64,000 bases of DNA from Candidatus Promineifilum breve (GTDB lineage: Bacteria > Chloroflexota > Anaerolineae > Promineifilales > Promineifilaceae), in NCBI RefSeq assembly GCF_900066015.1, contig NZ_LN890655.1, positions 1,590,726 to 1,654,725 of the forward strand. The letters run 5' to 3'. Made by a program: the position numbers and the translations under genes. How positions within the stretch are numbered: the first letter of the stretch is position 1; each line of letters begins with the position of its first letter. The notes beneath the pieces were generated by a model that had not been told where the DNA came from, did no database searches, and saw nothing but the letters and a program-made list of their open reading frames with translations. Shown here in pieces: positions 6,237 to 56,683 of the stretch.

Positions 6237-8942
6237 ATGGATCAGTCGCCGGGTGAGCCAATCGTCGGGGAGGAGTCGCCAACCGCGCCCATGATGAGCC
6301 GGCGCCTCACGGGGCGGGCGTGGCCGTGGGTCGCCGCCGCGGCCACGTTGCTGATCATTCTGCTGCTGCGCCCGGTGGGTCTCTGCCGCTGGCCGGCACT
6401 GTGCGATCCGCTGGTGGCGGTCGATATCGATCAGGGGCGGCTGGACACGGCCCTGCCCGCGCCGCAAAACGACCTGCGCCTGGAGCAGAGCTTCGTGCCG
6501 CGCCGCAACGGCCTGATGGAGATCGAGCTGCTGCTGGTGCGCTATGGCGGCCAACTATCGGAGGCCGAAGACCCGGGCCGCTTCTCGCTGGAACTGCTGG
6601 ATGACACGGGCAACCGTGTCGCCTCCGAGATCATCCCGTCCGGCCGCCTCACTCACAACCAGATCTACATCCTGCGCTTCTGGCCCCAACCCCGCTCGGC
6701 CGGCCGTCGCTACGTCCTGCGCCTGTCGGGCAACGACACCAACCACATCTCGGCCTGGGGCTATGCCGCCGACGTCTACGAGGCAGGCCGGTTGCGCCTG
6801 CTGTTCGACGCCCAACGCGCCGATCCGCCGCTGACCGACGCCGAGGAGATGCGCTTCGTCACTCGTTACGCACTGACGGCCGGGGATGCGGCGCGGGCGG
6901 CCGTGGCTCCGTTGCGCGAATGGGGCCTGCTGCTGGCGGCGCTATTGATGCTGCCGCTGCCCGGCGTGCTGCTGCTGTTGCTCGTCCGGCCGCGCGGCTG
7001 GGACGCAGGCGTGGCGGCCGGGGCGGCGCTGGCCCTGAGCGTGGCCGCCTGGCCCATTGTCTGGCAATGGGTTTCGCTGGCCGGTGGGCGTTGGTCGGGG
7101 CCGCTGCTGTGGGCGGTTGTGGTCGCCGGCTGGGCCGTGGCCGCCGGCCTGAAATTACGAATTACGAATTACGAATTACGAATGAAGAGCGCCGCCGGCC
7201 AACCGACGCCAGCCGCCACCCGCCACTCGCCACCCGCCACCCGCCACCTGCCACTTCTCCTATTGACCGCTCTCATCCTCGCCTCCCTCGCCGTCCGTTT
7301 CATCGCCGTGCGCGATCTGGCCTTCCCGCCGTGGGTCGATTCCAGCCGCCACGCGCTCATCACCGCCGTCATGGTCGAGAGCGGCCAAATACCAACTAAT
7401 TACGAGCCGTTTCTGCCGGTCGATCACTTCCCCTACCACTTCGGCTTCCATACCTTATCGGCCGGGCTGGCGCTGATGACAGGCCGGCCGCTGCCCGGCC
7501 TGTTGCTGCTGCTGATGCAGTTGCTGGGCGGGCTGCTGCCGCTGGCCGTCTATGCCGCCGGCTGGATGGTGACGCGGCGGCGGGCGGTGGGGCTGTTGGC
7601 GGCGTTCCTGGTGGCCCTGCCGTTCTTCTTCCCCGGCTACTATGCCACCTGGGGGCGGATGACCCAACTGGCGGCGATGATCGTCATGCCCGTGCTGCTG
7701 GGCCTCACCTGGCGGCTCGGCCGCGGCTGGCCGCGCGTCTGGCCGCTGGTGGGCGTGCTGGCCGCCGGGCTGTTCCTCATCCATATTCGCGTCTTCCTGT
7801 TCTACTTGCCCTTCGCCGCCATTGTCGCCGTGGCCCACCTCAGCCGCTACCGCCGGGCGCGCGGGTTGCTCCTGGCGGCGGCGCTGGGGCTGCTGCTCAT
7901 CCTGCCGCAGTTGATCGAACTGCTGACCGTCACCGACCCGCTGGCGACCATCGGCCAATCCTTGCCCGGCTACAACGACTTCCCCACCGGCTATCTGACC
8001 ACCGGCTGGGAGCGCGTTTATCTGTGGCTGGCCGCCGGGGCGGCGGCCGTCGTGCTGCTGGGCGTGGCGCGGCGGCGGCGTTGGGCCACGCTCCCGCTGC
8101 TGCTGCTGCTGTGGGTGGGGGCGCTGTTCGCCCTGCTGGCCGGCGACCGGCTGGGGCTGCCGGAGTCGCTGGTGGTCAACCTGAACAGCATGTACATCAC
8201 CCTCTTCCTGCCGCTGGCGCTGCTGCTGGCGATTGTGGCGGCGCGGATTCGACCGCCGACGGCCGACGGCCGACGGAGGAAAGAGGAAAGACCACAGACC
8301 ACAGACCACAGACCGCCGCAAGAAGTGACGAGTGATGAGTTAAGAGTGACGAGTCCAGAGAGCGGCGGGTGGCGGGTAGCGAGTGGCGAGGGCCTTCAGC
8401 GGTCTGCGGTCGGTCGTCCGCGGTCTCCTTTCGGCGGTCTGTGGTCGGTGGTCCGTGGTCTTCTTGGCGTCACCCTGGCCCTGCTCTTCCTCTTCGGCTG
8501 GCGGCAACAGGCCAATATCCTGAACCAGCAAACCATCCTGGCCCTGCCGGAGGACGTGGCCGCGCTGACCTGGATGGAGGCCAACCTGCCGGCCGAGGCC
8601 CGCGTAGCCGTCAGCGCCTGGCAATGGCTGGGCGTCACCTGGGCCGCGGCCGATGGCGGGGCGTGGCTCGTGCCCCTGACCGGCCGCGCGGCGACCACCC
8701 CGCCCATCGACCACATCTACAACCGCGACCTCTTCGCCGAGGTGCGGGCCTTCAACGAGGCGGCGTCGGCCGTGGAGGATTGGAGCGCCCCGGCGTCGGC
8801 CGCGTGGCTGGCCGAACAGGGCGTCAGCCACGTCTTCGTCGGGCGGCGCGGCGGCTTCTTCGACCCGGCCGAGTTGTTGGGCAATCCGGCGCTGGATATG
8901 GTCTATGGGTTTGATGGCGTATTCGTTTTTTCTGTCCGTTAA
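6237..8942 (+). CDS. Large polytopic membrane protein with two in-frame repeat insertions
   Basis: 901 residues. An N-terminal signal-like TM (about 30-45) is followed by an extracytoplasmic domain to about residue 215, then some ten or more hydrophobic helices, and a soluble C-terminal domain after about residue 755. The central part, with FPPWVDSSRHALITAVMVESG and FPYHFGFHTLSAG, resembles polytopic GT-C glycosyltransferase-like proteins; I do not recognise a named family. Two stretches are translated repeats: about residues 305-341 (LRITNYELR, then HSPPATRH) and 676-743 (QTTDHRP, then WRVASGE). Both lie in hydrophilic loops between helices and keep the frame open. Start ATG follows a -10-like box directly. 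Confidence 0.75.
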   Translation: MDQSPGEPIVGEESPTAPMMSRRLTGRAWPWVAAAATLLIILLLRPVGLCRWPALCDPLVAVDIDQGRLDTALPAPQNDLRLEQSFVPRRNGLMEIELLLVRYGGQLSEAEDPGRFSLELLDDTGNRVASEIIPSGRLTHNQIYILRFWPQPRSAGRRYVLRLSGNDTNHISAWGYAADVYEAGRLRLLFDAQRADPPLTDAEEMRFVTRYALTAGDAARAAVAPLREWGLLLAALLMLPLPGVLLLLLVRPRGWDAGVAAGAALALSVAAWPIVWQWVSLAGGRWSGPLLWAVVVAGWAVAAGLKLRITNYELRMKSAAGQPTPAATRHSPPATRHLPLLLLTALILASLAVRFIAVRDLAFPPWVDSSRHALITAVMVESGQIPTNYEPFLPVDHFPYHFGFHTLSAGLALMTGRPLPGLLLLLMQLLGGLLPLAVYAAGWMVTRRRAVGLLAAFLVALPFFFPGYYATWGRMTQLAAMIVMPVLLGLTWRLGRGWPRVWPLVGVLAAGLFLIHIRVFLFYLPFAAIVAVAHLSRYRRARGLLLAAALGLLLILPQLIELLTVTDPLATIGQSLPGYNDFPTGYLTTGWERVYLWLAAGAAAVVLLGVARRRRWATLPLLLLLWVGALFALLAGDRLGLPESLVVNLNSMYITLFLPLALLLAIVAARIRPPTADGRRRKEERPQTTDHRPPQEVTSDELRVTSPESGGWRVASGEGLQRSAVGRPRSPFGGLWSVVRGLLGVTLALLFLFGWRQQANILNQQTILALPEDVAALTWMEANLPAEARVAVSAWQWLGVTWAAADGGAWLVPLTGRAATTPPIDHIYNRDLFAEVRAFNEAASAVEDWSAPASAAWLAEQGVSHVFVGRRGGFFDPAELLGNPALDMVYGFDGVFVFSVR
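7150..7256. repeat. Heptamer repeats inside the 6237-8942 coding frame (first insertion)
   Basis: Tandem aattacg units (7150-7180) are followed after a short spacer by tandem gccaccc/gccactc units (7206-7253). The reading frame of the membrane protein continues through them, between two predicted TM helices. The same two families occur in non-coding gaps elsewhere in the window. Confidence 0.85.
8262..8466. repeat. Composite repeats inside the 6237-8942 coding frame (second insertion)
   Basis: The segment contains accacag heptamers (8287-8320), agtgacg-type units (8325-8360), ggtggcg / agtggcg units (8365-8392), and an inverted arm of ggtctgc / gtggtcc units (8398-8464). The outer families are inverse to one another, giving a foldback. 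The frame stays open for about 68 codons between helices ending LLAIVAARIR and beginning LLGVTLALLFLFG. Confidence 0.85.
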
Positions 8943-14763: not shown

Positions 14764-14920
14764 GAAAAACGCAAAGACGCCAAGGCGCAAAGGAGAAAAA
14801 GGTAGCGAGTAGCGAGTGGCAAGTAGCAAGTCGCTCCGAACACGCCACCCGCCACCCGCCACCCTTCGCGTCTTTGCGTTTTTCTTCCCGTCGTCAGTGG
14901 TCGGCCGTCCGTGGTCTTTC
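14764..14920. repeat. Composite inverted-arm repeat
   Basis: The outer arms AAAAACGCAAAGACGC and GCGTCTTTGCGTTTTT (14765-14780, 14867-14882) enclose heptamer arms, agtagcg/agtggca on the left and gccaccc on the right. A gtggtcg-type tail (14892-14920) follows. It fills the gap between the JAMM gene and plsY. Confidence 0.85.
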
Positions 14921-24989: not shown

Positions 24990-25013
24990 AAAGCCTCCAG
25001 GAAAGGGGCTAGG

Positions 25014-25083
25014 GGTTAGGTGCTAGGTGCTAGGGGAAGAGCGCTCTTCCCCTAGCACCTAGCACCTAGAACCTAGCACCTAT
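25014..25083. repeat. Inverted-arm heptamer repeat (gctaggt family)
   Basis: Left arm: tandem gctaggg/ttaggt/gctaggt units. Centre: GGGGAAGAGCGCTCTTCCCC, a perfect palindrome. Right arm: tandem cctagca units. The whole element folds back on itself. It fills the livH-livM gap. Confidence 0.9.
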
Positions 25084-26159
25084 TACGCTTTCTTCTCGGC
25101 CAGTCGTTCGCCAATGATGCCTTGCGGGCGGAAAATGAGCACCAGCACCAGCAGCAGGAAGGCGGTGACGTCCTTGAGCTGGTGGGCGCCGGGCGCGCCC
25201 AGCCCTTCCAGGATGAGCGGCGGGCCAACGGCCTCGATGACGCCCAGGAAGAAGCCGCCCAAGGCCGCGCCGGGGATGCTGCCGATGCCGCCCAGCACGG
25301 CGGCGGTGAAGGCTTTGATGCCGGGCACGAAGCCCATCGAGAAAATAACCTGCTTGAACACCAGCCCCCACAGCACGGCGGCGATGCCGGCCATCGTCGC
25401 CCCGATGGCGAAGGTGGTGGCGATGGCCCGGTCGACGTCGATGCCCATCAGGGCGGCCACGTCTTTATCCTCGGCCACGGCGCGGATCGACTTGCCGGTC
25501 TTCGTCTTCTGGACGAACAGGTACAGGCCGACGAGGGCCACGATCGAAACAATGATGACGATGAGCCGCACCTTGAGGAAGTCCAGGCCGAAGACGTTGA
25601 CCCGGCCTTCCAGGATCGTCGGCACGGGGAAGGCCTTGACCGCCGAGCCGAACAGGCCGCGGAAAATATATTGCCAGAAGAAGGACGCGCCGATGGCCGT
25701 AATGAGCGGGACCAGGCGCGGGGCGCGCCGCAATGGCCGGTAGGCGATGCGTTCCGTCAGCAGCGAGACAGCCATCGACGTCAGGACGGAGGCCATCGTG
25801 ACCAGAACAAGGTAGAGGATCGGTTGCTCGTTGATGAAGCCGGTGGAAGACAGCTTGGCGGCCACGAGATAAGTTGACGCCATGGCCCCGGACATGAAGT
25901 ACTCGCCATGGGCGAAGTTAATCATGAACAGCACGCCGTAGACCATGGTGTAGCCAAGGGCGATGAGCGCATAGAGGCCGCCCTGTGATAGTCCGGAGAC
26001 GAAGAAATCGATCCATTCATCGGCTCCGTAGGGCGTGCCTGCCCCGAAGAACAGCTTACGAGTGATGCCGACGACGACGCCGACGATGATCACGATACGA
26101 AAGACCCACAACCAGACGTCGATCCAGTCGATGTTCCTGAGGCGTTGCAACAATGCCAT
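25083..26159 (-). CDS. livH: Branched-chain amino acid ABC transporter permease LivH
   Basis: 358 residues with about eight TM helices. Typical LivH features are GLSQGGLYALIALGYTMVYG, INFAHGEYFMSGA and the cytoplasmic loop with AVAEDKDVAALMGIDVDRAI, followed by GIKAFTAAVLGGIGSIPGA. There is an N-terminal extra helix (about 12-35). It forms the membrane channel with LivM. It lies downstream of the livK terminator, so it is probably expressed by read-through at a lower level than livK. Confidence 0.96.
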   Translation of the reverse strand: MALLQRLRNIDWIDVWLWVFRIVIIVGVVVGITRKLFFGAGTPYGADEWIDFFVSGLSQGGLYALIALGYTMVYGVLFMINFAHGEYFMSGAMASTYLVAAKLSSTGFINEQPILYLVLVTMASVLTSMAVSLLTERIAYRPLRRAPRLVPLITAIGASFFWQYIFRGLFGSAVKAFPVPTILEGRVNVFGLDFLKVRLIVIIVSIVALVGLYLFVQKTKTGKSIRAVAEDKDVAALMGIDVDRAIATTFAIGATMAGIAAVLWGLVFKQVIFSMGFVPGIKAFTAAVLGGIGSIPGAALGGFFLGVIEAVGPPLILEGLGAPGAHQLKDVTAFLLLVLVLIFRPQGIIGERLAEKKA

Positions 26160-26175: not shown

Positions 26176-26216
26176 AAAGAAGAAAACCACCGATTGCACA
26201 GATTTCACAGATTGGT
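26176..26216. repeat. Short cacagattt repeat
   Basis: Two units of the 9-nt cacagattt family, upstream of livH. Single-armed here; full foldback copies are at 33440, 36713, 46115 and 56594. Confidence 0.6.
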
Positions 26217-27935: not shown

Positions 27936-28081
27936 AAGACGACAGACCACCGACGACAGACCGCAGCAAGAAAAATGCCAAGAGTCGCAAGTGGCAGGTT
28001 GCAAGTGGCGTGTTCAGTTAGACTTGCTACTTGCCACCCGCTACTCGCCACCCTTTGCGCCTTGGCGTCTTGGCGTTAAGC
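27936..28081. repeat. Composite inverted-arm repeat downstream of phoU
   Basis: Left arm: gacgacagaccacc units, then tgccaag, agtggca and agtggcg. Right arm: gccaccc/gctactc units, then the inverse tgcgccttggcgtcttggcg. This and unremarkable sequence make up the 423-base gap 27687-28109, in which I see no gene. Confidence 0.8.
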
Positions 28082-31140: not shown

Positions 31141-31226
31141 GGGGGCAGGTGGCGAGTAGCGGGTGGCGAGTGGCGTGTCCGGAGCGACTTGCCACCCGCC
31201 ACCTGCTACCCGCCACCCGCTACCTA
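31141..31226. repeat. Inverted-arm heptamer repeat (ggtggcg family)
   Basis: Left arm: ggtggcg/agtagcg/ggtggcg/agtggcg units. Right arm: gccaccc/gccacct/gctaccc units. The 7-nt period is clear, and the arms are inverse. It fills the plsX-fabF gap and borders the plsX stop. Confidence 0.9.
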
Positions 31227-32213: not shown

Positions 32214-32261
32214 GAATGGCTCTCTTACTCGCTCGCTAGTGGGCTAATTCTATCATATTTG

Positions 32262-32346
32262 GCGCAGGGGGGCAGGGGGGCAGGGGTGCGGGGGTGCAGG
32301 AGGGCGGAGGTGCAGGGGAGCAGGGGAGCAGGGGAGAAAGGGAGCA
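32262..32346. repeat. Tandem repeat of gcaggggag units
   Basis: Units of 7-9 nt (ggcaggg, tgcaggg, agcagggg) run for about 85 bases downstream of yihY. It is the inverse of the 29786 family. Confidence 0.8.
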
Positions 32347-32348
32347 GA

Positions 32349-33439: not shown

Positions 33440-33513
33440 GAATCCACAGATTACACAGATTTCACAGATTTAAAAGAGCAATCATCCTCTTCATCTGTGA
33501 AATCTGTGGATTC
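33440..33513. repeat. Inverted-arm repeat (cacagattt family)
   Basis: Left arm (33440-33470): ccacagatt, acacagatt, tcacagatt. Right arm (33490-33513): the inverse catctgtgaaatctgtgg. Unit length is 9. It lies between yihY and the cystathionine synthase gene. Confidence 0.9.
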
Positions 33514-35291: not shown

Positions 35292-38200
35292 ATGGCGGCC
35301 GATCATCCACCTCTACAGCAAACACAACGTCCTCTCCAGACGTGGGCCGGCGCGGCATTGCTCGCCGCCTGCGGCATCGTGGCCGGGCTGGCCGTGTCGC
35401 GGCTGCTGTTCGAGGGGCTGTTCCCGGCGGCGGGTTGGCTGGGGCGACCGGCCGGGGCGCTGGCGTTGGGGCTGGTGGGCGCAATTGTGGCCTGGTTCGC
35501 CGGGCGACGGCTCAATAATCTCACGCTCACTGCGCTGCTGCCCCTGCTGCTCAACCTCGTCTGGCTGCTCGATCCGGCGGTGGAGTTGGCCCGCGGCCGT
35601 TTCCTCTTCGCCGCCGGCTGGTGGCTCGTCGCCGTGCTGGTGGTTCATGGCCGTCTTGGCGAGAGCGACCGCCGCTGGCGGCGGGTGGGGCCGTTGTTCG
35701 TGGCCGTCGCCCTGCTGCCGGTCTATCTGGCGACCATGGCCTCGGCCGTCGGCGCGGCCGACACGTTCGAGTTCCAGGTCGTCGCCCCGCAGTTGGGCAT
35801 CGCCCACCCCACCGGCTATCCGCTCTACCTGTTGCTGGGCAAGCTGTTTTCGCTGCTGCCGTTGGGCACGGTGGCCTGGCGGCTCAATCTGGCCTCGGCC
35901 GTCTATGCCGTGGTGGCGGCGGCGCTGGTCTTTCGCATCGGGCTGGACCTGCTGCGGCGGCCGTTGCCCGCCCTGGTGGGGGCCATTGCCCTGGGTCTGG
36001 CGCCCATCTATTGGAGCCAGGCCATCGTGGCCGAAGTCTATGCGCTCCACGCGCTCATCGTGGCCCTGGCTTTGTGGCTGATGGTGCGGCTGACCACCGA
36101 CGGCCGGCGACAGGCCGCCGACCGGCGCAAGGCGGTGGTGGGGCTGACCTTTTTGATTGGGCTGGGGCTGACCAACCATCTGACCACGGTATTTCTGATC
36201 CCGCCGGCCGCGCTGGCCGTTGCCCTGCGACTACTGCACGATGAGGGCGAAGGGCGGCGGCTGACCATCCGGCCGCTCATGCGTTTCTGGCCCGCCGCGC
36301 TGGCCTTTCTCGTGCCGCTGCTGCTCTACCTTTACCTGCCGCTGCGCTGGCAGGCGGTCAACGGCGAGCCGATGGGCGCGGCCCGCTTTATCGAGTGGGT
36401 CATCGGCGGGCGCTTCCAGGGGGCGCTGCAATGGGCGGCGTGGCTGCGCGATCCGGCACGTTGGGCGATCATCGGCCGCTTGTTGTTCGACGCCTGGGGA
36501 TGGGTCTATCTGGCGCTGGCCGCGATTGGGCTAGTGTGGCTCGTGGCGCGGCAGTGGCGGGCGGCGGTGGTGCTGCTGGCGGCGGCCGTGGGCTTCACCT
36601 TCTATGCCCTCAACTACTACGTGCCCGACCTGGCCGTCTTTCTCATCCCGACGCACGTGGTCATCGCCATCTGGCTGGCGGCGGGCGTGGCGGCAGTTAG
36701 CGGAAGAAGAAGAGAAACCACAGATTACACAGATTTCACAGATGGAAGAGAGAGATCCGCAGATTTCGCAGATTACGCAGATTCAAGAGAACGATCTTAT
36801 CTGCGAAATCTGCGTAATCTGCGGATCGATCCCCGCTTTGTCTTCCTTCTGGCAATCTTGCCCGCGCTCTTGGCGGCCGGCGGTCGGTGGTCGGCGGTCG
36901 ATCAATCCGGCAGCGACGGCGGCGAGCCGTGGGCGCGGGGCGTGCTGGCCCAGCCGTTGGCGCGCGGCGCGGCCGTGCTGGCCGACAGCCAGAAGATCGC
37001 CCCGCTCTACTACTTGCAACAGATCGAGGGGTTGCGGCCCGACCTTGAAATCATGGTACTGCCCGATGAGGCCGCCTATCGCGCCGAACTGGACGCGCGG
37101 CTGGCCGCCGGGCAAGCGGTCTACCTGGCCCGCTACCTGCCGGGGCTGGCCGGGGTCTACCATTTGCGCTCGGCCGGGCCGCTGGTCGAGGTCAGTCGGG
37201 AGCCGCTAACGGCGTTGCCCGCCGAGGCGACAACGGCCGATCTTGTTGCCGGGCCGCTGCGGCTGCTGGGTTATGCCGTCGAGCCGGTGGCCGCCGTCGA
37301 TTCGAGCGCGGCGGGCGTGACGCTGTATTGGACGTTGGAACGGCCATTGGCCGCGGGGGAAGCGACGCCGGTCGTCTATCTGCGCTGGGCGGGCGGCCAG
37401 CCGGTCGTGGCCGGGCGACATCCGGCCGGCGACTCGTACCCGGTCAACGCCTGGCGGCCGGGGGAGATCGTGCCTGACTTTCACCTCTTGCCGTTACCAT
37501 TCACCGATTGCGACGCGGCCGACTGCCCGGCGACCGTCGAAGTGGCCGTCGCGCCACGCTTCACGCCCGCGGCCGAGCTGGCGTGGCAGCCGGTGGCGGC
37601 CGTGCCCGTTGGAACGCGACCGGGGCCGGTGGGCGGGGCACGGCGGGCGTTGTTCGACGGCTTCGCGCTGGACGGGATCGACTTTCCGGCGTCGGCCCGG
37701 CCGGGCGCGGCGCTGCCCTTGCGCTATAGCAGCTATTCTGACGGCGGCGAGTTGGCCTTTCTGGTGGCGCCGGTTCATGCGCTGGATAGCCTGGTCATCC
37801 CCGCCGGCGGCGCGCCTGCCGGGCGCGTGGCCTCGGGCGCGTCGGCGGCCTTCACCGCCGAGGTGGAACCGGCCACGGAAACCGGCCCGCACGCGCTTAT
37901 CGCCTATGCGAAGGACGACCTGGCGGCGGTCTGCGGCTGGCTGCGGCGGCCGACCACGGGCTGCGTGGTGGCCGAGATCGCCATCAGCGGCGCGCCACTG
38001 CCGGAAGGGGCGACCAACTTCAACGACCGGATCGCCCTGCTCGGCGTGGAACTGGCGCCGGGCAACCTGACGCCGGGCGGCCAATTGCCGGTGACGCTCA
38101 CCTGGCAGGGGTTAGCCGAACTGAGTGAGGATTACACCGTCTTCGTGCAGGTACTCGACGCCGCCGACCGTATCGTGGGCCAGGTCGATTCGTGGCCGGT

Positions 38201-46114: not shown

Positions 46115-46302
46115 GAGAATCCACAGATTTCACAAGAGAATCCACAGATTTCACAGATTTCACAGATTGAAGAAGAGGAGGTTTTATCCGCAGATTTCGC
46201 AGATTACGCAGATTTTTAAGAGGATTTCTTAATCTGCGAAATCTGCGTAATCTGCGGATCAATAACTCTTCATCTGTGAAATCTGTGCAATCTGTGGTTT
46301 TC
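46115..46302. repeat. Nested inverted-arm repeats (cacagattt and cgcagattt families)
   Basis: An outer pair of cacagattt arms encloses an inner pair of cgcagattt arms with a central loop (agaggatt). The unit is 9 nt. It lies between the MEMO stop and the kinase start, and is the longest such element in the window. Confidence 0.9.
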
Positions 46303-48309: not shown

Positions 48310-49320
48310 GTGCGGGCGGCGTGGCGCGACACGCTGTTGCTGCTGCGGCAGTTCGCCGCGCCGCTGCTGCTCTTCTCGCTGATCATCGTCGGCGGCGGGC
48401 TGCTCTACTACGCCCTGGCCCGCCTGGCCGGCGAGCCGGTGGACAGCCCGGCCGAGGCCATTTACCTGACGCTGGGGCTGGCCTTCTTCCAGCCCAACGG
48501 GGAGTTCCCCCACGAGTGGTATCTGCAACTGTTCTATTTCGCCGTGCCGGTGTTGGGGCTGGGCATTCTGGCCGCCGGGCTGGCCGATTTCGGCCGCCTG
48601 TTCTTCAACCGCCGGACGCGCCGCAAGGAGTGGGAAATGGCTGTCGCTTCCACGTTCAACCGCCATCTGGTATTGATTGGGTTGGGCCATCTGGGCTATC
48701 GGGTCATGGAAACGCTGGTCAACAACGGCCAGCAGGTGGTGGTCATCGAGCACGATCCCAAGCCGCAACTGCTGGAGGGGGCGCGGCGGCTGGGCGTGCC
48801 GGTCATCCAGGCCGACGGCCGCAGCCCCGAAGCGCTGGAGGGTGCGGGCACGGCGCGGGCGCGGGCCATCCTGCTGTGCACCCAAAATGACGTGCTGAAC
48901 TTGCAGATCGCCTTTGCGGCCCAACGGCTGAACCCCACCATCGAGGTCGTGGTGCGCATCTTCGATGACGAGTTCGCCGCCGACGTGGCGGCCAGGTTCG
49001 GCTTCCGCGCCCTGAGCGCCACGGGGTTGGCCGCGCCGGCCTTCGCCTCGGCCGCGTCGGGCGTCGATGTGACCCGGCCCATCACCGTCGACGGCCGGCC
49101 GTTTAGCCTGGCCAGCCTGACGCTGGGCCGCGGGTCGCGGCTGGCCGGGCGGGCGGTGGGCGACATCGAAGGCGCGTTCGAGGTCAGCGTGGTGCTGCTG
49201 CGGCGCGATGGGGCGTCTGACCCGCATCCGGCGGCCGAGCGCCGCGTGGCCGAGGGGGATGTGGTGGCGGTGCTGGGCGAGCCGGAACGGATCGCGCGGC
49301 TGACGGCGGAAAACCAGTAA
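48310..49320 (+). CDS. Two-TM channel-like protein with RCK (TrkA) domains, lacking the K+ filter
   Basis: About 336 residues. The frame is open far upstream, but that part only shadows the radical SAM gene; a GTG at 48310 (or CTG at 48283) is the likely start. Two helices (about 12-34, and VLGLGILAAGLADFGRLFF about 73-95) enclose a pore-like loop EAIYLTLGLAFFQPNGEFP that has no TVGYGD filter. RCK: LVLIGLGHLGYRVMETL (NAD-type GxGxxG) to about residue 240. TrkA_C-like end: LGRGSRLAGRAVGDIEGAF. It resembles ligand-gated K+ channels but the ion, if any, is uncertain. Confidence 0.78.
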   Translation: MRAAWRDTLLLLRQFAAPLLLFSLIIVGGGLLYYALARLAGEPVDSPAEAIYLTLGLAFFQPNGEFPHEWYLQLFYFAVPVLGLGILAAGLADFGRLFFNRRTRRKEWEMAVASTFNRHLVLIGLGHLGYRVMETLVNNGQQVVVIEHDPKPQLLEGARRLGVPVIQADGRSPEALEGAGTARARAILLCTQNDVLNLQIAFAAQRLNPTIEVVVRIFDDEFAADVAARFGFRALSATGLAAPAFASAASGVDVTRPITVDGRPFSLASLTLGRGSRLAGRAVGDIEGAFEVSVVLLRRDGASDPHPAAERRVAEGDVVAVLGEPERIARLTAENQ

Positions 49321-49392
49321 GAATTACGAATGACGAGTGACGAATGAAGAGCGCGCTTTTTCATCTTCATTCGTCATTCGTCATTCGTCACT
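49321..49392. repeat. Inverted-arm heptamer repeat (aatgacg family)
   Basis: Left arm: aattacg, aatgacg, agtgacg, aatgaag. Right arm: the inverse ttcattcgtcattcgtcatt. Unit 7. It separates the convergent channel and HtrA genes. Confidence 0.9.
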
Positions 49393-49396
49393 TCTA

Positions 49397-51316
49397 CTAA
49401 GGCCCAACGTAGACAAAGCTGTTCAATATCTGGTCGAGGGCGGCGTCGTCGGCTTCGGTGACCAGCTGTATCTGGAGTAGCATGATAGCATTCTGGGCCA
49501 GAGGTTCTGCGGCCAGGATGATGAACCGGCTGCCCTCGCCACCACAGTTGGAATAGGAATCATACGCACCGGTATAGAGCGCGTCACTGTAGTCGGTCCG
49601 GCCATCATAAGTGCAACTGCCGGACATGTCGAATTGATCGAGAAAGGTCGCAAACGTATAGGTCTGGCGCAGCGAGGGCGAGGCGCCAAAAAAGACGCCG
49701 GGGGTCGTCCAGGTGTCGAAATAAGCATCGATGTCGGGCGCAGCTTTAAGCCCGGGGCCGACATCCTCCCCTTCGAGCGTCCAGGCCGCGCCGTCAACGT
49801 CACTCCATTCCACCGGGACCGACACCTGCAGGGCGCCGGTGTCGTCCTGAATGATGGCGAACTCGCTGTAGCCCACGCCGCTATCGCTGCCGGTGGAATC
49901 TTCACCACCCGTCGTGAACGTCTCTATGATCGCCAGCGGATCGCCGTTCAACTGCCCGGCCAACAGCGTTCCGTCGGTCAGACGCAACACCTCGATCGAC
50001 ATGGTATCGGTCATATCCCGGCCACGCAGGATATCGCAATAGGCCGACATGGTGCCGTCTGTCGCCAGCACAAGCCCTTCCATCTTGGTCAGGATGTCGC
50101 CCGCCTCCACGCCGGCCCGGTCGGCTGGAGAGCCCGACTGGACTGAGGCTACCCAGATGCCGAAGATGCTCTCACCGTCGCTCACGGCCTGGCCGTTGAT
50201 GCCAACCGAATTGACGTCGTTCCCGGCGCGCAATTGTTCAATGATCGGCAGCGCTTCGTCACGGGAGATAGAGAAGTACTGGTCGGTATCAGCGCTGGCG
50301 GCGTAGTTGATACCCACCACACGGCCATCACTATCGACAAGCGGGCCGCCGGAATTGCCAGGATTGACGACAGCATCGATTTCGAGCACGCTATCGACCG
50401 AGGCCCAGTTCGTTTCGCCACTGGTGCGGGCCTTGGAGACGATGCCCCGCGTCAGGGTGAACTCCTCATTACCGAAGAAGGGGAAGCCGCCGACATAGAT
50501 GTCGAGACCGGCGGGGATATCGCCCTCACGCCATTGCAGGGCGGGGAAACCTTCGCCCTCAACGTCGATGACAGCCAGATCGGAGCATTCGGATACGCCC
50601 AGGATTTTGGCGTTGCGCGGCTCGTCTTCGCCCTCCACGTAAACTTGCAGGAAAGCCGAGCCGGTGACGACGTGGTTGTTGGTAACGGCGATGCCCGCCG
50701 GGTCAATGAGGAAGCCAGATCCCTGCCCGGCAGCGTTGGTCATCTGCCCAAACTCGGGGTCCATGAAGCTGCCTTCGGCCTGGATACGGATTGTCGCGCG
50801 GCGCACGTCTTCCAGTGTGGTGGAGATCTCGGTGACGGCCGTCGCCTCGGCCGTGGGTAATTCGGTAGGGGTGGAGGTGGCGGTTGGCTCGGGTTGGACC
50901 TGGGCCACTTCGCCGTTTACCAGGATGTCGAGGGTCTGGTTAGGTTCATCGTTGAGGACGAGGTCAACCTTGTAGGTGCCCGGCGCCCACGCGCCATCGG
51001 GAGACAGGTTAAAGGTGAGGATGCCGCTGCCGGAGGTGAGGCTGGCCTCGTCGATGAGGGTATTGAGCGGGGCCACGCTGCCGACGTCGACCGCATACCA
51101 GACGGCTTTGACGGTGGTGTCATCGGGGGCATTGGCCAGGTCGATAATGAGATAGAAGGTTTCGTCGGGTTCGAAAGTTGAAGTGGGTTGGGTGCCGGCC
51201 TCGTCACGGGCCAGCGTGGCACTTTTAATGTTGGCGGTGCTGGCGCTGAATTCGCAAGCGACCATCAATAACGCGGTCAATAAGGTCAGGATCGGGCTCA
51301 CAATACGGTGGCGCAT
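49397..51316 (-). CDS. HtrA/DegP-type serine protease with extra domains, lipoprotein
   Basis: 639 residues. Lipoprotein signal ending LLMVAC (Cys21). Residues about 30-135 form an unrecognised beta-rich domain (DETFYLIIDLANAPDDTTVK). A Pro/Thr-rich linker follows, then the trypsin-like protease with His215 (VTNNHVVTG), Asp246 (CSDLAVID) and Ser322 (NPGNSGGPL). A PDZ domain (SGSPADRAGVEAGDILTKME) follows to about residue 470, then an unfamiliar domain to the end with a conserved-looking Cys pair (SGSCTYDG, SNCGGEG). Likely a surface quality-control protease. Confidence 0.92.
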   Translation of the reverse strand: MRHRIVSPILTLLTALLMVACEFSASTANIKSATLARDEAGTQPTSTFEPDETFYLIIDLANAPDDTTVKAVWYAVDVGSVAPLNTLIDEASLTSGSGILTFNLSPDGAWAPGTYKVDLVLNDEPNQTLDILVNGEVAQVQPEPTATSTPTELPTAEATAVTEISTTLEDVRRATIRIQAEGSFMDPEFGQMTNAAGQGSGFLIDPAGIAVTNNHVVTGSAFLQVYVEGEDEPRNAKILGVSECSDLAVIDVEGEGFPALQWREGDIPAGLDIYVGGFPFFGNEEFTLTRGIVSKARTSGETNWASVDSVLEIDAVVNPGNSGGPLVDSDGRVVGINYAASADTDQYFSISRDEALPIIEQLRAGNDVNSVGINGQAVSDGESIFGIWVASVQSGSPADRAGVEAGDILTKMEGLVLATDGTMSAYCDILRGRDMTDTMSIEVLRLTDGTLLAGQLNGDPLAIIETFTTGGEDSTGSDSGVGYSEFAIIQDDTGALQVSVPVEWSDVDGAAWTLEGEDVGPGLKAAPDIDAYFDTWTTPGVFFGASPSLRQTYTFATFLDQFDMSGSCTYDGRTDYSDALYTGAYDSYSNCGGEGSRFIILAAEPLAQNAIMLLQIQLVTEADDAALDQILNSFVYVGP

Positions 51317-51668: not shown

Positions 51669-51738
51669 AGGTGCGACGCACTTCAGAAAGTGCATCGCAC
51701 CTGCCACCTGCCACCTGCCACCCGCCACCTCTTTTCAC
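51669..51738. repeat. Hairpin repeat aggtgcgacgcactt followed by gccacct heptamers
   Basis: 51669-51702 is a copy of the 43275-43308 hairpin with one base changed in the right arm. Five gccacct/gccaccc units follow directly. Confidence 0.85.
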
Positions 51739-52677: not shown

Positions 52678-53481
52678 ATGACTGCACAAATTGTGACGGT
52701 AACATCGGGCAAGGGCGGTGTGGGCAAGACGACGGTGACGGCCAATCTGGCCTCGGCGTTGGCCATGCTGGGCAAGAAGGTGACGGCCATCGACGCCGAC
52801 ATCGGCCTGCGCAACCTGGACGTGGTGATGGGGCTGGAGAATCGCATCGTCTATGATCTGGTCGACGTGGTGGAGGGGCGCTGCCGGCTGCGGCAGGCGA
52901 TGATCAAGGACAAGCGCCAGCCGGAGCTATACCTCATCCCGGCGGCGCAGACGCGCGACAAGACGGCCGTCAGCCCGTCGGACATGGTGCTCATCTGCGA
53001 CCAACTGCGCGAGGAGATGGATTACGTCATCATCGACTCGCCGGCGGGCATCGAGCGCGGCTTCCGCAACGCCGTGGCCCCGGCCGACAAGGTGGTCATC
53101 GTCACCAACCCGGAAGTATCGGCCGTGCGCGACGCCGACCGCATCATCGGGCTGATCGAGGCCGAGGAGAAGGGGCCGGGCCAGCTGATCATCAACCGCG
53201 TCAAGCCGGCCATGGTCAGCCGCGGCGATATGCTGTCGGTGGATGACGTGCTCGACATCCTGGCCGTGCAACTCCTGGGCGTCATCCCTGATGACGAGCG
53301 CATCCTCATCGCCAGCAATCAGGGCTTGCCGCTGGTGATGCACGGCGTGAACGGGGTCAGCGCCGGCGAGGCGTTCCGCAACGTGGCCCGCCGGCTGGAG
53401 GGCGAGGACGTGCCTTTCCTGGAACTGGCCCAGAAGCAGACGTTCATGTCGCGCCTGCGGGCATTTATGGTGGGGCAATAG
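52678..53481 (+). CDS. minD: Septum site-determining ATPase MinD
   Basis: 267 residues. The deviant Walker A GKGGVGKTTVTANLA (10-24) and IDADIGLRNLDVVMGLENR are typical of MinD/ParA-type ATPases. The C-terminal end FMSRLRAFMVGQ is an amphipathic membrane-targeting helix. MinD binds ATP, dimerises on the membrane and recruits MinC; MinE stimulates its hydrolysis. Confidence 0.97.
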   Translation: MTAQIVTVTSGKGGVGKTTVTANLASALAMLGKKVTAIDADIGLRNLDVVMGLENRIVYDLVDVVEGRCRLRQAMIKDKRQPELYLIPAAQTRDKTAVSPSDMVLICDQLREEMDYVIIDSPAGIERGFRNAVAPADKVVIVTNPEVSAVRDADRIIGLIEAEEKGPGQLIINRVKPAMVSRGDMLSVDDVLDILAVQLLGVIPDDERILIASNQGLPLVMHGVNGVSAGEAFRNVARRLEGEDVPFLELAQKQTFMSRLRAFMVGQ

Positions 53482-53484
53482 AGT

Positions 53485-53600
53485 TAAGAATTTAAACACG
53501 GATGGGACACGGATTAGACGGATGGTACGGATTGAAGGGCTATGTGTCGGCTCAATCCGTTTTATCCGTAACATCCGTGTCAATCCGTGTTGAATTTCTT
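53485..53600. repeat. Inverted-arm repeat between minD and minE (acacggat family)
   Basis: Left arm: tttaaacacggatgggacacggat units. Right arm: the inverse aatccgttttatccgtaacatccgtgt (split as aatccgttttatccg and taacatccgtgt). Unit 8-10 nt. Different family from those in neighbouring gaps. Confidence 0.85.
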
Positions 53601-53617
53601 CATGTGAGGGATACGTC

Positions 53618-53896
53618 ATGAGTTGGCTCGATCGATTGCTGGGCAAAAACGAAACCAGCGGCCAGAAGGCCAAGCAACGCTTGCAGATGGTGCTCATCCA
53701 CGATCGCGCCGATCTGCCGCCGGGGCTGCTGGAAATCATCAAGGACGACATCATCGAAGTCATCGCCCGCCACACGGCCATCGACAGGGATAAGGTCGTC
53801 GTCCATCTGGACAGCACCACGCAGGAGAACCGGCTGGTGGCGGAGATACCTTTGGCGACCGCGCGGGTGAGGGCGAAGGTGGCGGGTCGCGGGTAG
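53618..53896 (+). CDS. minE: Cell division topological specificity factor MinE
   Basis: 92 residues. The N-terminal SWLDRLLGKNETSGQKAKQRLQ includes the MinD-binding helix region, and LQMVLIHDRADLPPGLLE with DKVVVHLDS are typical. MinE drives MinD oscillation. The last residues (RAKVAGRG) run into ggtggcg-type heptamers, and the stop codon is within the repeat. Confidence 0.95.
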   Translation: MSWLDRLLGKNETSGQKAKQRLQMVLIHDRADLPPGLLEIIKDDIIEVIARHTAIDRDKVVVHLDSTTQENRLVAEIPLATARVRAKVAGRG

Positions 53897-53931
53897 CGGG
53901 TGGCGAGTGGCGGGTTGCGGGTAGTAGAGGT
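53876..53931. repeat. Left heptamer arm flanking the four-helix-bundle gene
   Basis: Units ggtggcg, ggtcgcg, ggtagcg, ggtggcg, agtggcg, ggttgcg, ggtagta. It is the inverse of the 54350-54427 array on the other side of the gene. Confidence 0.85.
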
Positions 53932-53944
53932 TAGCTAAAGGGCT

Positions 53945-54349
53945 GTGTTCAAGAATTTTGAGGAATGGGTTTTGCAGGTTCCGCTGAGTATTAGAAGCGA
54001 CTCATTATGGGAGTTTGTCACCTACCGTTACGCCCTTTTTCTGTCCGATCTGGCTTGGTTCGACGCGGAAAAAATCATCAAAGACTCGCGTGGCCGAGGT
54101 ATCGCCTGGCAGCTTGTCGATAGTGCCGGTTCGATTGCCGCTAATATTGAAGAAGGGTATGGCCGTGGATTCGGTAAGGATTATTCCCGCTTCTTGCGAA
54201 TCTCTTTAGGCTCAGCCAGAGAGACCAAAGGGTGGTACTATCGCAGTCGCCACGTCCTTGAGGAACAGGTAGTCCATCACCGCATGGCCCTCATCGACGA
54301 GATAATCGCCAGCCTCGTGATCGTAGCCAAACAGCAACGCGACAAATAA
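53945..54349 (+). CDS. Four-helix-bundle protein (23S rRNA intervening-sequence / bAvd family)
   Basis: 134 residues from a GTG. Typical family stretches are LVDSAGSIAANIEEGYGRG, DYSRFLRISLGSARET and LIDEIIASLVIVAKQQ. The family is encoded by intervening sequences in 23S rRNA of several bacteria, and its fold is shared with the Avd accessory protein of diversity-generating retroelements. No reverse transcriptase or rRNA is here. Instead the gene is bracketed by two inverted heptamer arrays, as IVS genes are bracketed by complementary stems. Function is unknown; nucleic acid binding is likely. Confidence 0.88.
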   Translation: MFKNFEEWVLQVPLSIRSDSLWEFVTYRYALFLSDLAWFDAEKIIKDSRGRGIAWQLVDSAGSIAANIEEGYGRGFGKDYSRFLRISLGSARETKGWYYRSRHVLEEQVVHHRMALIDEIIASLVIVAKQQRDK

Positions 54350-54427
54350 CCCACCCGCCACTCGCCACTCGCCACCCGCCACTCGCCACTCGCCACTCGC
54401 CACCCGCCACTCGCCACTCGCCACCCC
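54350..54427. repeat. Right heptamer arm flanking the four-helix-bundle gene
   Basis: Eleven units of gccactc/gccaccc in perfect 7-nt register, starting at the end of the gene. It is the inverse of the 53876-53931 array. Confidence 0.9.
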
Positions 54428-54476
54428 TAACCTGTGAACTCCCTTAAATCTATGGGTTCCCCCTCTCTGACTGAGC

Positions 54477-54482
54477 TACAAT
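54477..54482 (+). promoter_or_regulatory. Putative -10 box (leaderless) of rodA
   Basis: TACAAT ends 9 nt before the ATG at 54492, with no ribosome site in between. Confidence 0.4.
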
Positions 54483-54491
54483 TCATGGGTT

Positions 54492-55601
54492 ATGCTATCG
54501 AGGACGTCGGTTTGGCGCTATTTTGACGTGTGGCTGTTGGCGGCGGTGGTGCTGCTGACCGGCTACGGCATCCTCATGATCCGCAGCGCCATCACCGGCG
54601 CGCCGGCCTTCGAGACCTACCCGCAGCAACAACTCATCTGGGCCGGGCTGGGGTTGGTGATCCTGCTGGTCACGGCGGCCATCGACTACCGCATCCTGAC
54701 CTCGTCCCACTGGTGGATTTATGCCGGGCTGGTGGGGCTATTGGTGCTGGTCGTCGTCACCGGCCAGGTGAACAATGACGCCCGGCGCTGGATTCAGATC
54801 ACCCCCTCGTTCCAGATTCAGCCGTCGGAATTCGGCCGCATCTTCATCGCCATCACCTTCGCCCAATTTCTGGCCAATCGCCGCCACCTGATGAACCGCT
54901 TCGGCAACACGCTGCTGACGCTGGCCTATTTCGCCGTGCCGGTGGGCCTCATCTTCATCCAACCCAACCTGGGCATGACCATCCTGTTCATGTTCATCTG
55001 GTTTGTCGTCATCTGGGTGGCCGGGCTACCGCTGCGCCACTTCGCCATGTTGGGAGCGATGGGCCTCGTTGTGGGGCTGGCCGTCTTCCCGCTGCTGGCC
55101 GATTACCAGCGCGAACGCATCACCACCTTCCTGAACCCCGAAGAGGCCAGTTCCGACGACGTGTTCAATATCGATCAGGCCGAGATCAGTATCGCCACCG
55201 GCAGTTGGACGGGCAAGGGGTATTTGCAGGGCACACAGAGCCAGCTCGGCTTCCTGCGCGCCCAGCACACCGACTTCATCTTCTCAGTCATCACCGAAGA
55301 GATGGGGCTGATGTTCGGCACGGTGGTGGTGCTGGGGCTGATGGGCTTTATTTTGCTGCGCATCCTGCGCGCGGCCCAGCTTAGCCCCGACCCGGCCGGC
55401 AAGCTGATCTGCGCCGGCATTGCCGCCATCCTCTTCTTCCAGACGGCCGTCAACGTGGGCATGAACGTGCGCGTGCTGCCCGTCACCGGCCTCACGCTGC
55501 CGTTCGTCAGCTACGGCGGCAGCTCGCTCATCACCCTGTTCCTGGCCATCGGCGTCGTCGAATCGGTGCTGATGCGGCAGCGGAAGCAGGAGTTTGGATA
55601 G
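54492..55601 (+). CDS. rodA: Rod-shape SEDS glycosyltransferase RodA
   Basis: 369 residues with about ten TM helices. The family motifs are VLLTGYGILMIRSA, NNDARRWIQI, QPSEFGRIFIAITFAQFL, FIQPNLGMTILFMFIW, TEEMGLMFGTVVVLGLMGF and VTGLTLPFVSYGGSSLI. SEDS proteins polymerise peptidoglycan together with a class B PBP. RodA rather than FtsW is favoured by the NDARRW stretch, length and min context, but no mreB or PBP2 is nearby. No other cell-wall gene is in the window. Confidence 0.93.
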   Translation: MLSRTSVWRYFDVWLLAAVVLLTGYGILMIRSAITGAPAFETYPQQQLIWAGLGLVILLVTAAIDYRILTSSHWWIYAGLVGLLVLVVVTGQVNNDARRWIQITPSFQIQPSEFGRIFIAITFAQFLANRRHLMNRFGNTLLTLAYFAVPVGLIFIQPNLGMTILFMFIWFVVIWVAGLPLRHFAMLGAMGLVVGLAVFPLLADYQRERITTFLNPEEASSDDVFNIDQAEISIATGSWTGKGYLQGTQSQLGFLRAQHTDFIFSVITEEMGLMFGTVVVLGLMGFILLRILRAAQLSPDPAGKLICAGIAAILFFQTAVNVGMNVRVLPVTGLTLPFVSYGGSSLITLFLAIGVVESVLMRQRKQEFG

Positions 55602-55603
55602 GG

Positions 55604-55680
55604 AAGTGGGTAGTGGACAGTGGGTAGTGGACAGTAGGCCGCTGTCGCAATCGCTTTCGCAATCGCAATCGCTTTCGTTC
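55604..55680. repeat. Heptamer repeat (agtggac) followed by hexamer repeat (aatcgc/tttcgc)
   Basis: Five 7-nt units (agtgggt, agtggac, agtgggt, agtggac, agtaggc) are followed by 6-nt units aatcgc and tttcgc (55636-55675). Single-armed. Confidence 0.8.
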
Positions 55681-55715
55681 TTCAGTGCTCAGTAGGTCAG
55701 CGGCGGGTGTTCTAA

Positions 55716-55765
55716 ATTCGTCATTCGTCATTCGTCGTTCGTCATTTCTTGTTCGTCATTCAATA
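55716..55765. repeat. Heptamer repeat (attcgtc)
   Basis: Six units attcgtc/gttcgtc just upstream of the KilA-N gene. It is the same family as 49321-49392. Confidence 0.8.
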
Positions 55766-55767
55766 TC

Positions 55768-56586
55768 ATGGAAACAATCACTGTTCTCGATCAACAGGTC
55801 GCTATCGCGCCGATTGACGGCGTCGATTACATCAGTATTACCGACATGGCCCGCTACCGGGACGAGGAGCGCACCGACTACATCGTCCAGAACTGGCTGC
55901 GCAATCGGGACACCATCGAATTTTTGGGCATCTGGGAGCATCTGAACAACCCGACGTTCGACGGCGCGGCCTTCGACGGCTTCCGGCGGCAGGCGGGGCT
56001 GAACCGCTTCACGCTGACCGCCAAACGCTGGATCGAGGCCACCCATGCCGTGGGGCTGGTGAGCCGCGGCGGGCGGCGGGCCGGCATCTTCGCCCACCCC
56101 GACATCGCCTTCGAGTTCGCCTCGTGGGTGGCGGTGGAGTTCAAGCTGTATCTGATCAAGGAGTTCCAGCGCATCAAGAGCGATGAACTGGAGCGGCTGG
56201 GCTGGGACATCCGCCGCAATCTGGTGAAGCTCAACTATCGCATCCACACCGAGGCCATCCGCCAGACGCTGGTGCCCAACGAACTGAGCGCCGAGGAGAA
56301 GAGCGCCATCTACCGCTCCGAGGCCGACGTGCTGAACATGGCCCTCTTCGGCCGGACGGCGGCCGAATGGCGCGAGGCCCATCCCGACGAAAAGGGCAAC
56401 ATCCGCGACCAGGCCACCATGGGGCAACTGGTGGCCCTGTCCAATCTGGAGAACCTCAACGCCCACTTCATCCGCGAGGGCCTGCCCCAGGACGAACGGC
56501 TGGAGCGGCTGAACCGGATTGCCATCGACCAGATGAGGTTGTTGACGGGGGAGGCCAGTGTGCGGGCGTTGGCGGCGGGGGAGTAA
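55768..56586 (+). CDS. KilA-N domain protein
   Basis: 272 residues. DGVDYISITDMARYRDEERT and WLRNRDTIEFLGIWEHLNN are the KilA-N/ANT-type DNA-binding domain seen in phage and bacterial accessory genes. The second half has a helical segment rich in Arg/Glu (about 130-250) without a recognised domain. Often associated with phages or defence; here it is flanked by repeats and a peptidase E gene, with no phage genes. Possibly a host accessory regulator. Confidence 0.87.
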   Translation: METITVLDQQVAIAPIDGVDYISITDMARYRDEERTDYIVQNWLRNRDTIEFLGIWEHLNNPTFDGAAFDGFRRQAGLNRFTLTAKRWIEATHAVGLVSRGGRRAGIFAHPDIAFEFASWVAVEFKLYLIKEFQRIKSDELERLGWDIRRNLVKLNYRIHTEAIRQTLVPNELSAEEKSAIYRSEADVLNMALFGRTAAEWREAHPDEKGNIRDQATMGQLVALSNLENLNAHFIREGLPQDERLERLNRIAIDQMRLLTGEASVRALAAGE

Positions 56587-56593
56587 AGAAACT

Positions 56594-56683
56594 TAATCCG
56601 CAGATTGTCGCTGAGGACAGCGGGCAGATTACGCAGATTGAAGAAAAATCTGCGTAATCTGCGAAATCTGCGGATCAGATTTC
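56594..56683. repeat. Inverted-arm repeat (cgcagattt family)
   Basis: Left arm: ccgcagatt, then cagattacgcagatt with an intervening ctgaggacagcg hairpin. Right arm: atctgcgtaatctgcg and aaatctgcgg. Unit 9 nt. Confidence 0.85.

Follow-up and report, generated by a model that had tools for sequence, protein, structure and literature searches.

A PF05635 four-helix-bundle gene between inverted heptamer arrays in Candidatus Promineifilum breve, a probable copy of a pan-bacterial mobile cassette

The 64,000-nt stretch of DNA analysed here (the window) carries a gene for a short four-helix-bundle protein between minE and rodA/ftsW (Table 1). In profile searches its product matched PF05635, the 23S rRNA intervening-sequence protein (IVP or S23) family, at 52.4 bits (cutoff 33.8) and TIGR02436 at 60.6 bits (cutoff 24). 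PF05635 was the sole domain matched in the reading frame, no Y1 (HUH) transposase domain was found, and to our knowledge the family has no known catalytic domain. The AlphaFold2 model (pLDDT 88.7) came closest in the PDB to two crystal structures of the S23 family, 2RLD and 2GSC, with TM by target up to 0.89. Similarity was weaker to bAvd of diversity-generating retroelements (DGRs; 4DWL, TM 0.80 by target), and the model matched the DGR ribonucleoprotein 8UB7 with a TM of 0.82. The structure of Xanthomonas S23p is cited in PMC4990558 as a homopentameric ring. Values of dN/dS were 0.04-0.15 for PF05635 proteins in pairs with measurable dS, indicating strong purifying selection.

Heptamer arrays border the gene on both sides. 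They are inverted relative to each other and 84% complementary over 45 nt, and the minimum free energy fold of RNA 53870-54435 joined both arms in a single long stem (z = -4.57 relative to shuffled sequences). The gene, both arrays and their mirror-image orientation, as described in the first-pass annotation, were thus all confirmed. That annotation placed the layout in the intergenic region between minE and rodA; the gene does lie between them, but the left array runs into the minE reading frame and covers its last 19 nt (53878-53896). The 3' end of minE is invaded by arrays in the host and, with another unit, in the relative G002 (locus L120), and the last residues of MinE are therefore array-encoded. 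The likeness drawn to a 23S rRNA intervening sequence held for the protein family and for the complementary terminal stem around the reading frame, formed by the 45-nt arms and seen in the RNA fold, but not for rRNA location: an Rfam search of 53400-54700 gave no match, hence no rRNA at the locus, and a position within 23S rRNA was ruled out.

Further arrays lie close by. The minD-minE gap (window 53490-53600) holds another foldback with a longer unit, ACGGATNNNACACGGAT, and has a GTCATTC array in the relative G004. A KilA-N domain gene at 55768-56586 is flanked by short arrays (AGTGGGTAGTGGAC and ATTCGTC) and a 9-mer array (window 55605-56672).

Table 1. Genes, arms and geneless arrays in the window, by window position.
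Feature	Coordinates	Strand	Remarks
minE, upstream neighbour	53618-53896		
Left (5') arm, 6.4 units GTGGCGR (GGTGGCG array)	53878..53922	+	TRF and inverted-repeat search
PF05635 four-helix-bundle (23S rRNA IVP / S23) gene	53945..54349	+	134 aa, GTG start
Right (3') arm, 10.6 units, inverted (CCACTCG/CCACCCG)	54351..54424	+	TRF and inverted-repeat search
rodA/ftsW, downstream neighbour	54492-55601		
Geneless foldback GTGGCGA / GCCACCC, same unit as the window gene's arms	31148..31225	.	loop of ~4 nt
Geneless array CGCCACC, unit family of window gene	7203..7259	.	cosine 0.83 to its arms
Geneless array GTGGCGG, unit family of window gene	8362..8392	.	cosine 0.85
Geneless foldback-like pair GTAGCGA / CGCCACC, unit family of window gene	14801..14870	.	
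Geneless inverted pair GCTACTCGCCACCC, unit family of window gene	27983..28053	.	
Geneless array CACCTGC/CACCCGC, same or sister family of window gene's unit	51692..51732	.	cosine 0.40
Geneless foldback GAATGAC / GTCATTC	49315..49397	.	cognate gene L004 (contig 2, before guaA)
Geneless inverted pair AGACCAC / GTGGTCT	8246..8463	.	cognate gene L003
Geneless array, 8-nt unit GCAGGGGA	32258..32347	.	cognate gene L002

The window contained 21 period-7 arrays, against 0.05 expected under a Markov-1 null, and about a dozen inverted pairings of period-7 to period-9 arrays. The gene-bearing foldback is thus one among many. Four PF05635 genes were found in the host, with the arm units GTGGCGR (window gene), GCAGGGGA, AGACCAC and GAATGAC. 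A 464-kb sample of the host genome held 104 period-7 or period-8 arrays, nearly all of them geneless and a few being gene arms. The arms of the host's own four genes matched 59% of these arrays; random sets of four foreign genes matched a mean of 3.5%, and none of 5000 sets reached the observed value. The geneless foldbacks, earlier proposed to be non-autonomous relatives of the gene-bearing element, do share the units of the host's own genes. By extrapolation the host would carry about a thousand period-7/8 arrays, host-wide numbers being based on the 464-kb sample and on pattern counts.

Among related genomes, the copy number of heptamer families largely tracked cognate genes. Whole-genome counts of GTGGCGA were 487 in the host (G000), 86 in G016 and 30 in G014, the latter two carrying the sister genes, and 0-3 in the same-genus genomes G001-G006. 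Counts of GAATGAC and GCAGGGGA likewise followed their cognate genes, with exceptions. G004 had 192 GAATGAC matches and no cognate gene found in the draft, gene absence in relatives being uncertain because draft genomes break at repeats; in G013, 100 kb contained no period-7 array despite the presence of three PF05635 genes. Four genomes without PF05635 showed no period-7 array in 306 kb. On contigs from other phyla, distant arrays were closer to the arms of the local gene than to foreign arms (p=5e-5).

To examine arms across the family, PF05635 genes were gathered from the host (four genes), from 31 of the 40 relatives and across many phyla of bacteria; the 80 contig loci of the cross-phylum set are biased to one subfamily because the scan was based on a closer subfamily. 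Removal of duplicates and flank-poor loci left 167 genes for scoring. Complementarity between upstream and downstream flanks (250 nt each side) had a median of 18 in these genes and 11 in 525 control ORFs of those loci (p=5e-34, with loci non-independent, gene starts approximate and control ORFs naive calls). Arms paired better with their own partner than with arms taken from different loci (p=1.6e-47), and their pairing also exceeded that expected when unit order was shuffled (mean z 0.72, t=5.3). Flank periodicity was 7, its multiple 14 or, less often, 8, and ended at a distance of roughly 120 nt from the gene. A level of 19 or more of 24 lag-7 matches was reached by 36% of upstream and 31% of downstream flanks compared to 1.4% of control segments, several thresholds of the study having been set after the data were seen. 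A tandem arm in some form was present at 151 of the 167 genes, and 16 had no detectable tandem arms; in a stricter test, 76 of 169 genes had tandem arms both upstream and downstream, and the rate among control segments taken singly was 4.7%.

The first-pass annotation had suggested a search for arrays around homologues outside rRNA, and inverted period-7 arms were indeed present in many phyla. It had also held that homologues lacking arrays would count against the idea. Such homologues appeared at the margin only: the 16 genes above and seven sub-threshold Avd-like homologues, several of them beside a reverse transcriptase, in which paired arms were absent. The absence of paired arms from Avd-type homologues indicates that the arms go with the IVP branch.

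The Avd-type genes also bear on a retro-element reading, in which the protein would work with a reverse transcriptase, as bAvd does in DGRs, and copies would spread through RNA. The fold similarity to bAvd 4DWL (0.80) and 8UB7 (0.82) and the strong RNA stem of the arms would suit such a role. However, the host genome (99.96% complete) contains no reverse transcriptase (PF00078), and a reverse-transcriptase model was rejected for the host. G003, with 196 GAATGAC matches, likewise lacks PF00078, and the Avd-type genes, several beside reverse transcriptases, lack paired arms. We regard a retro-element as very improbable.

Each protein subfamily went with its own heptamer core. Units at PF05635 loci outside the host included GTAGAGA, CAGGGAT, TCAGCNN and others. 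Arm similarity rose with protein similarity (Mantel r=0.317, 0 of 500 permutations), and this held even across phyla. The arm cosine was 0.30 for proteins sharing 60-70% identity, nearly all such pairs spanning two genomes, while paralogues within one genome at less than 35% identity had unrelated units (arm cosine 0.02-0.03). One multi-phylum subfamily uses YAGCNNT: in 237 units from 41 loci, positions 5-6 were nearly free and position 7 was T in 78%. Because runs were picked for YAGC at 7-nt spacing, the selection itself accounts for part of the fixation of YAGC, but not for the freedom seen at the remaining positions. In the pair L001/L174 synonymous sites were saturated (pS 0.85), yet the arm cosine was 0.86, and common descent of the cassette alone is therefore a poor explanation of the correlation between unit and protein.

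These results also address coincidence between two mutation-prone features, heptamer arrays made by slippage in intergenic DNA and a small selfish gene able to persist there. Some bacteria do have many heptamer repeats between genes, according to passages of PMC4692102 and PMC4679880. The subfamily-specific units in the Mantel test and the match of host arrays to the host's own genes effectively refute coincidence, and it is further opposed by block insertion (below) and by arms that are more complementary than their unit composition explains (t=5.3). We give it almost no credence.

Comparison of gene neighbourhoods revealed empty and filled sites. The minE-rodA gap contains the gene and arms in the host and is empty in G001, G004 and G008; in other relatives it contains a geneless foldback, with a GTGGCGR-type unit in G014 and other units in G002, G006 and G011. 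The xpt-guaA gap measures about 16 nt in G008, holds geneless foldbacks in G002 and G007, and is occupied in G000, G003 and G005 by an L004-type gene with GAATGAC arms.

Near-exact empty/filled pairs were obtained on cyanobacterial plasmids, for subfamilies other than that of the window gene. On plasmid C of Trichormus variabilis and on a Scytonema plasmid, a cassette lies immediately 3' of a TAA stop codon. The same site is unfilled, with a 13-nt gap, in Fremyella, Aulosira, Tolypothrix and Nostoc plasmids that are 97-98% identical around it. The insert is 428 or 414 nt, a difference of two heptamers, and in a Brasilonema plasmid this site is occupied by a geneless foldback built from the same unit. 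Elsewhere, cassettes of this subfamily were alike from arm to arm and unrelated beyond the arms. A second plasmid site agreed (a 3-nt gap from stop codon to start codon in Nostoc plasmids), as did pairs at nrdB-nrdA and in a cmr operon. The cassette thus enters gaps between genes as one block, arms included. The claim of a mobile cassette was upheld on this point, empty and filled sites existing and gene and arms entering together; of the empty sites and junctions to be sought, empty gaps were found in close relatives and exact junctions on the plasmids, but not a junction at minE-rodA, because the empty relatives are too diverged.

Cassettes were also seen inside CRISPR operons of cyanobacterial plasmids (L271, L273 and L274), at cas6/cas4 in two type I-D operons and at cas10/cmr3 in a type III-B operon.

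Geneless and deleted forms accompanied the full cassettes. On pNPM1 of Nostoc N6 (L283, 1191-1830) a geneless foldback interrupts a four-helix-bundle ORF; its interior is conserved and has hairpins of its own. L283, L285 and L286, geneless Nostoc elements, share interior and ends, lie in different places, are each followed by GATAA and showed no target duplication. An internal-deletion derivative in Nostoc C052 (L287) retains the two arms together with both ORF ends. Over several sites target duplication was non-uniform, with a possible 4-5 bp duplication (TAAT/GTAAT) at one and none at L283; arm length varied, and insertion ends were not sharply conserved. Block insertion, empty and filled sites, and geneless and deleted forms are typical of a mobile element that has given rise to non-autonomous derivatives.

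A regulatory network offers another reading of these data: the protein would be an RNA- or DNA-binding regulator, the arms would serve autoregulation, and the geneless foldbacks would be a regulon made mostly by slippage and kept by selection, with nothing mobile. Arrays do occur in operons and close to the ends of genes, units vary outside a conserved core, the protein is under purifying selection, and similar heptamer families were proposed to be regulatory in passages on Geobacter and Beggiatoaceae (PMC2700814, PMC4679880). However, sites are poorly conserved within the genus, where one and the same gap may be empty or hold a foldback of another unit or the gene. The whole block of gene and arms inserts at new sites, and a foldback interrupts a four-helix-bundle ORF. 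Slippage, moreover, yields tandem copies that are identical; it does not produce inverted arms in which one core is kept and other positions vary. We consider a purely regulatory network unlikely.

Hitch-hiking is less likely still. Here cassettes and foldbacks would be MITE- or PATE-like cargo of IS200/IS605 (Y1) or other insertion sequences, and the gene a passenger, perhaps protective or acting in copy control. The GATAA that follows L283, L285 and L286, together with their lack of target duplication, resembles IS605-type target choice, and a TnpB gene lies near the Trichormus insertion. Y1 counts, however, did not track arrays: G003 had no Y1 gene and 196 GAATGAC matches, and G037 had three Y1 genes and no arrays in the sampled 100 kb. 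A single enzyme family would also not explain subfamily-specific units across phyla. A Y1-transposase model was thus unsupported.

We therefore favour the mobile element. The locus is probably one instance of a pan-bacterial family of mobile cassettes in which the four-helix-bundle protein corresponds to the arms and to dispersed foldbacks, with recognition and a role in spread the parts we infer. The cassette consists of a left heptamer array, the PF05635 ORF and an inverted right array, about 0.4-0.5 kb in all. By homology, the protein may form a pentameric ring of four-helix bundles, and this ring may recognise its own unit as DNA or RNA. It could then promote the spread not only of its own cassette but also, acting in trans, of geneless foldbacks. 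Its role would resemble that of a RAYT, with no known recombinase involved, and would probably draw on the replication or repair machinery of the host at single-stranded hairpins. Because the host has no reverse transcriptase, Y1 genes do not track arrays and target duplications are non-uniform, retro-transposition and a plain insertion-sequence mechanism are both unfavoured; copying at hairpins coupled to replication or repair is the least contradicted route. By analogy with the RNase III excision of rRNA intervening sequences (PMC4990558), the RNA stem of the arms could shield operon mRNA. By setting the ORF apart from adjoining mRNA, a transcribed stem may make insertion into an operon harmless. 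More tentatively, and as something we would not yet expect to hold, PF05635 proteins could be mobility proteins of a new class; as rings, they would read a subfamily-specific 4-5 nt core every 7 nt and drive array birth, inversion and spread through host replication without recombinase or reverse transcriptase. If so, this would be a first function for the S23/IVP family and would give most bacterial heptanucleotide repeats, rRNA intervening sequences included, a common origin.

Several known systems resemble this cassette. In REP/REPIN-RAYT (TnpA-REP) systems, a low-copy gene is flanked by inverted repeats that are also dispersed as non-autonomous palindromes, and gene subfamily and repeat type go together. 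The present gene is likewise flanked by repeats of a dispersed family. Unlike RAYTs, its product is a four-helix bundle and not a Y1 HUH transposase, the arrays have period 7, and Y1 genes do not track them; no fixed tag of the GTAG/CGTC type was noticed by eye beside the palindromes. MITEs and foldback elements are similarly short and numerous, with inverted ends and an internal-deletion form (as L287), but here no fixed terminal sequence or uniform target duplication was seen, and array ends vary in length. The fold is shared with bAvd, whereas the host has no reverse transcriptase and Avd-type homologues have no arms.

Intervening sequences of 23S rRNA with an S23p/IVP ORF (Leptospira, Coxiella) share PF05635, a long complementary stem whose loop contains the ORF, and a selfish appearance. 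The cassette differs in lying outside rRNA, in its subfamily-specific heptamer arms and in its many dispersed geneless copies. The 23S rRNA intervening sequence of Coxiella burnetii has three tandem GACAGAT heptamers before the S23 ORF, variable among strains (PMC4990558), which fits a heptamer/PF05635 system inside rRNA; S23p is reportedly probably not made there (PMC4990558), in contrast to the cassette protein, which is under purifying selection.

Passages of PMC4692102, PMC2700814 and PMC4679880 describe heptanucleotide families in Xanthomonas (GGGAATC), Nostoc (GGGGA(C/T)T), Geobacter (GGGACCG and MTYCTGA) and Beggiatoaceae (TAACTGA). In Xanthomonas, PMC4692102 gives positions 1-4 and 6 as conserved and counts 70 convergent pairs. 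Like the present arrays, these are tandem heptamers, partly in inverted pairs and intergenic. The passages concerned tie none of them to a PF05635-type protein, and our data offer a candidate partner; as far as those passages go, the four groups look like the geneless part of a heptamer/PF05635 system. Apart from the Coxiella heptamers, no link between heptamers and PF05635 was found in the open-access papers searched. Heptamer repeats were previously put down to polymerase slippage, G-quadruplexes or regulation. Two old puzzles are joined here, a very widespread protein family without a known function and abundant intergenic heptamer repeats, and the heptamer/PF05635 system may account for the enigmatic heptamers that have been described in bacteria for many years. 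If our reading is true, it describes a mobile element family without a recognised recombination enzyme, spread over phyla such as Chloroflexota, Bacteroidota and Cyanobacteria, whose members can occupy essential operons. In a matched protein-repeat system, the subfamily would predict the sequence bound, and an orphan heptamer family would predict a partner gene.

Orphan families occur in the host, whose genome yielded no cognate gene for CACAGATTA, AATTACG or GGGGCTA. Foldbacks with a 9-nt unit (CACAGATTA / CGCAGATTT), for which no cognate four-helix-bundle gene was found, lie in the window at 36711-36828, 46132-46301, 26188-26214, 33445-33471 and 56646-56672, and one also fills the minE-rodA gap of G006 (L119). 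GGGGCTA/TAGGTGC foldbacks, without a cognate gene in the host genome, were seen in the window at 25000-25087 and at L120. A similar, TAGGGGC-like unit flanks the PF05635 genes L010 and L011 in related genera, a distribution that fits gene loss or transfer.
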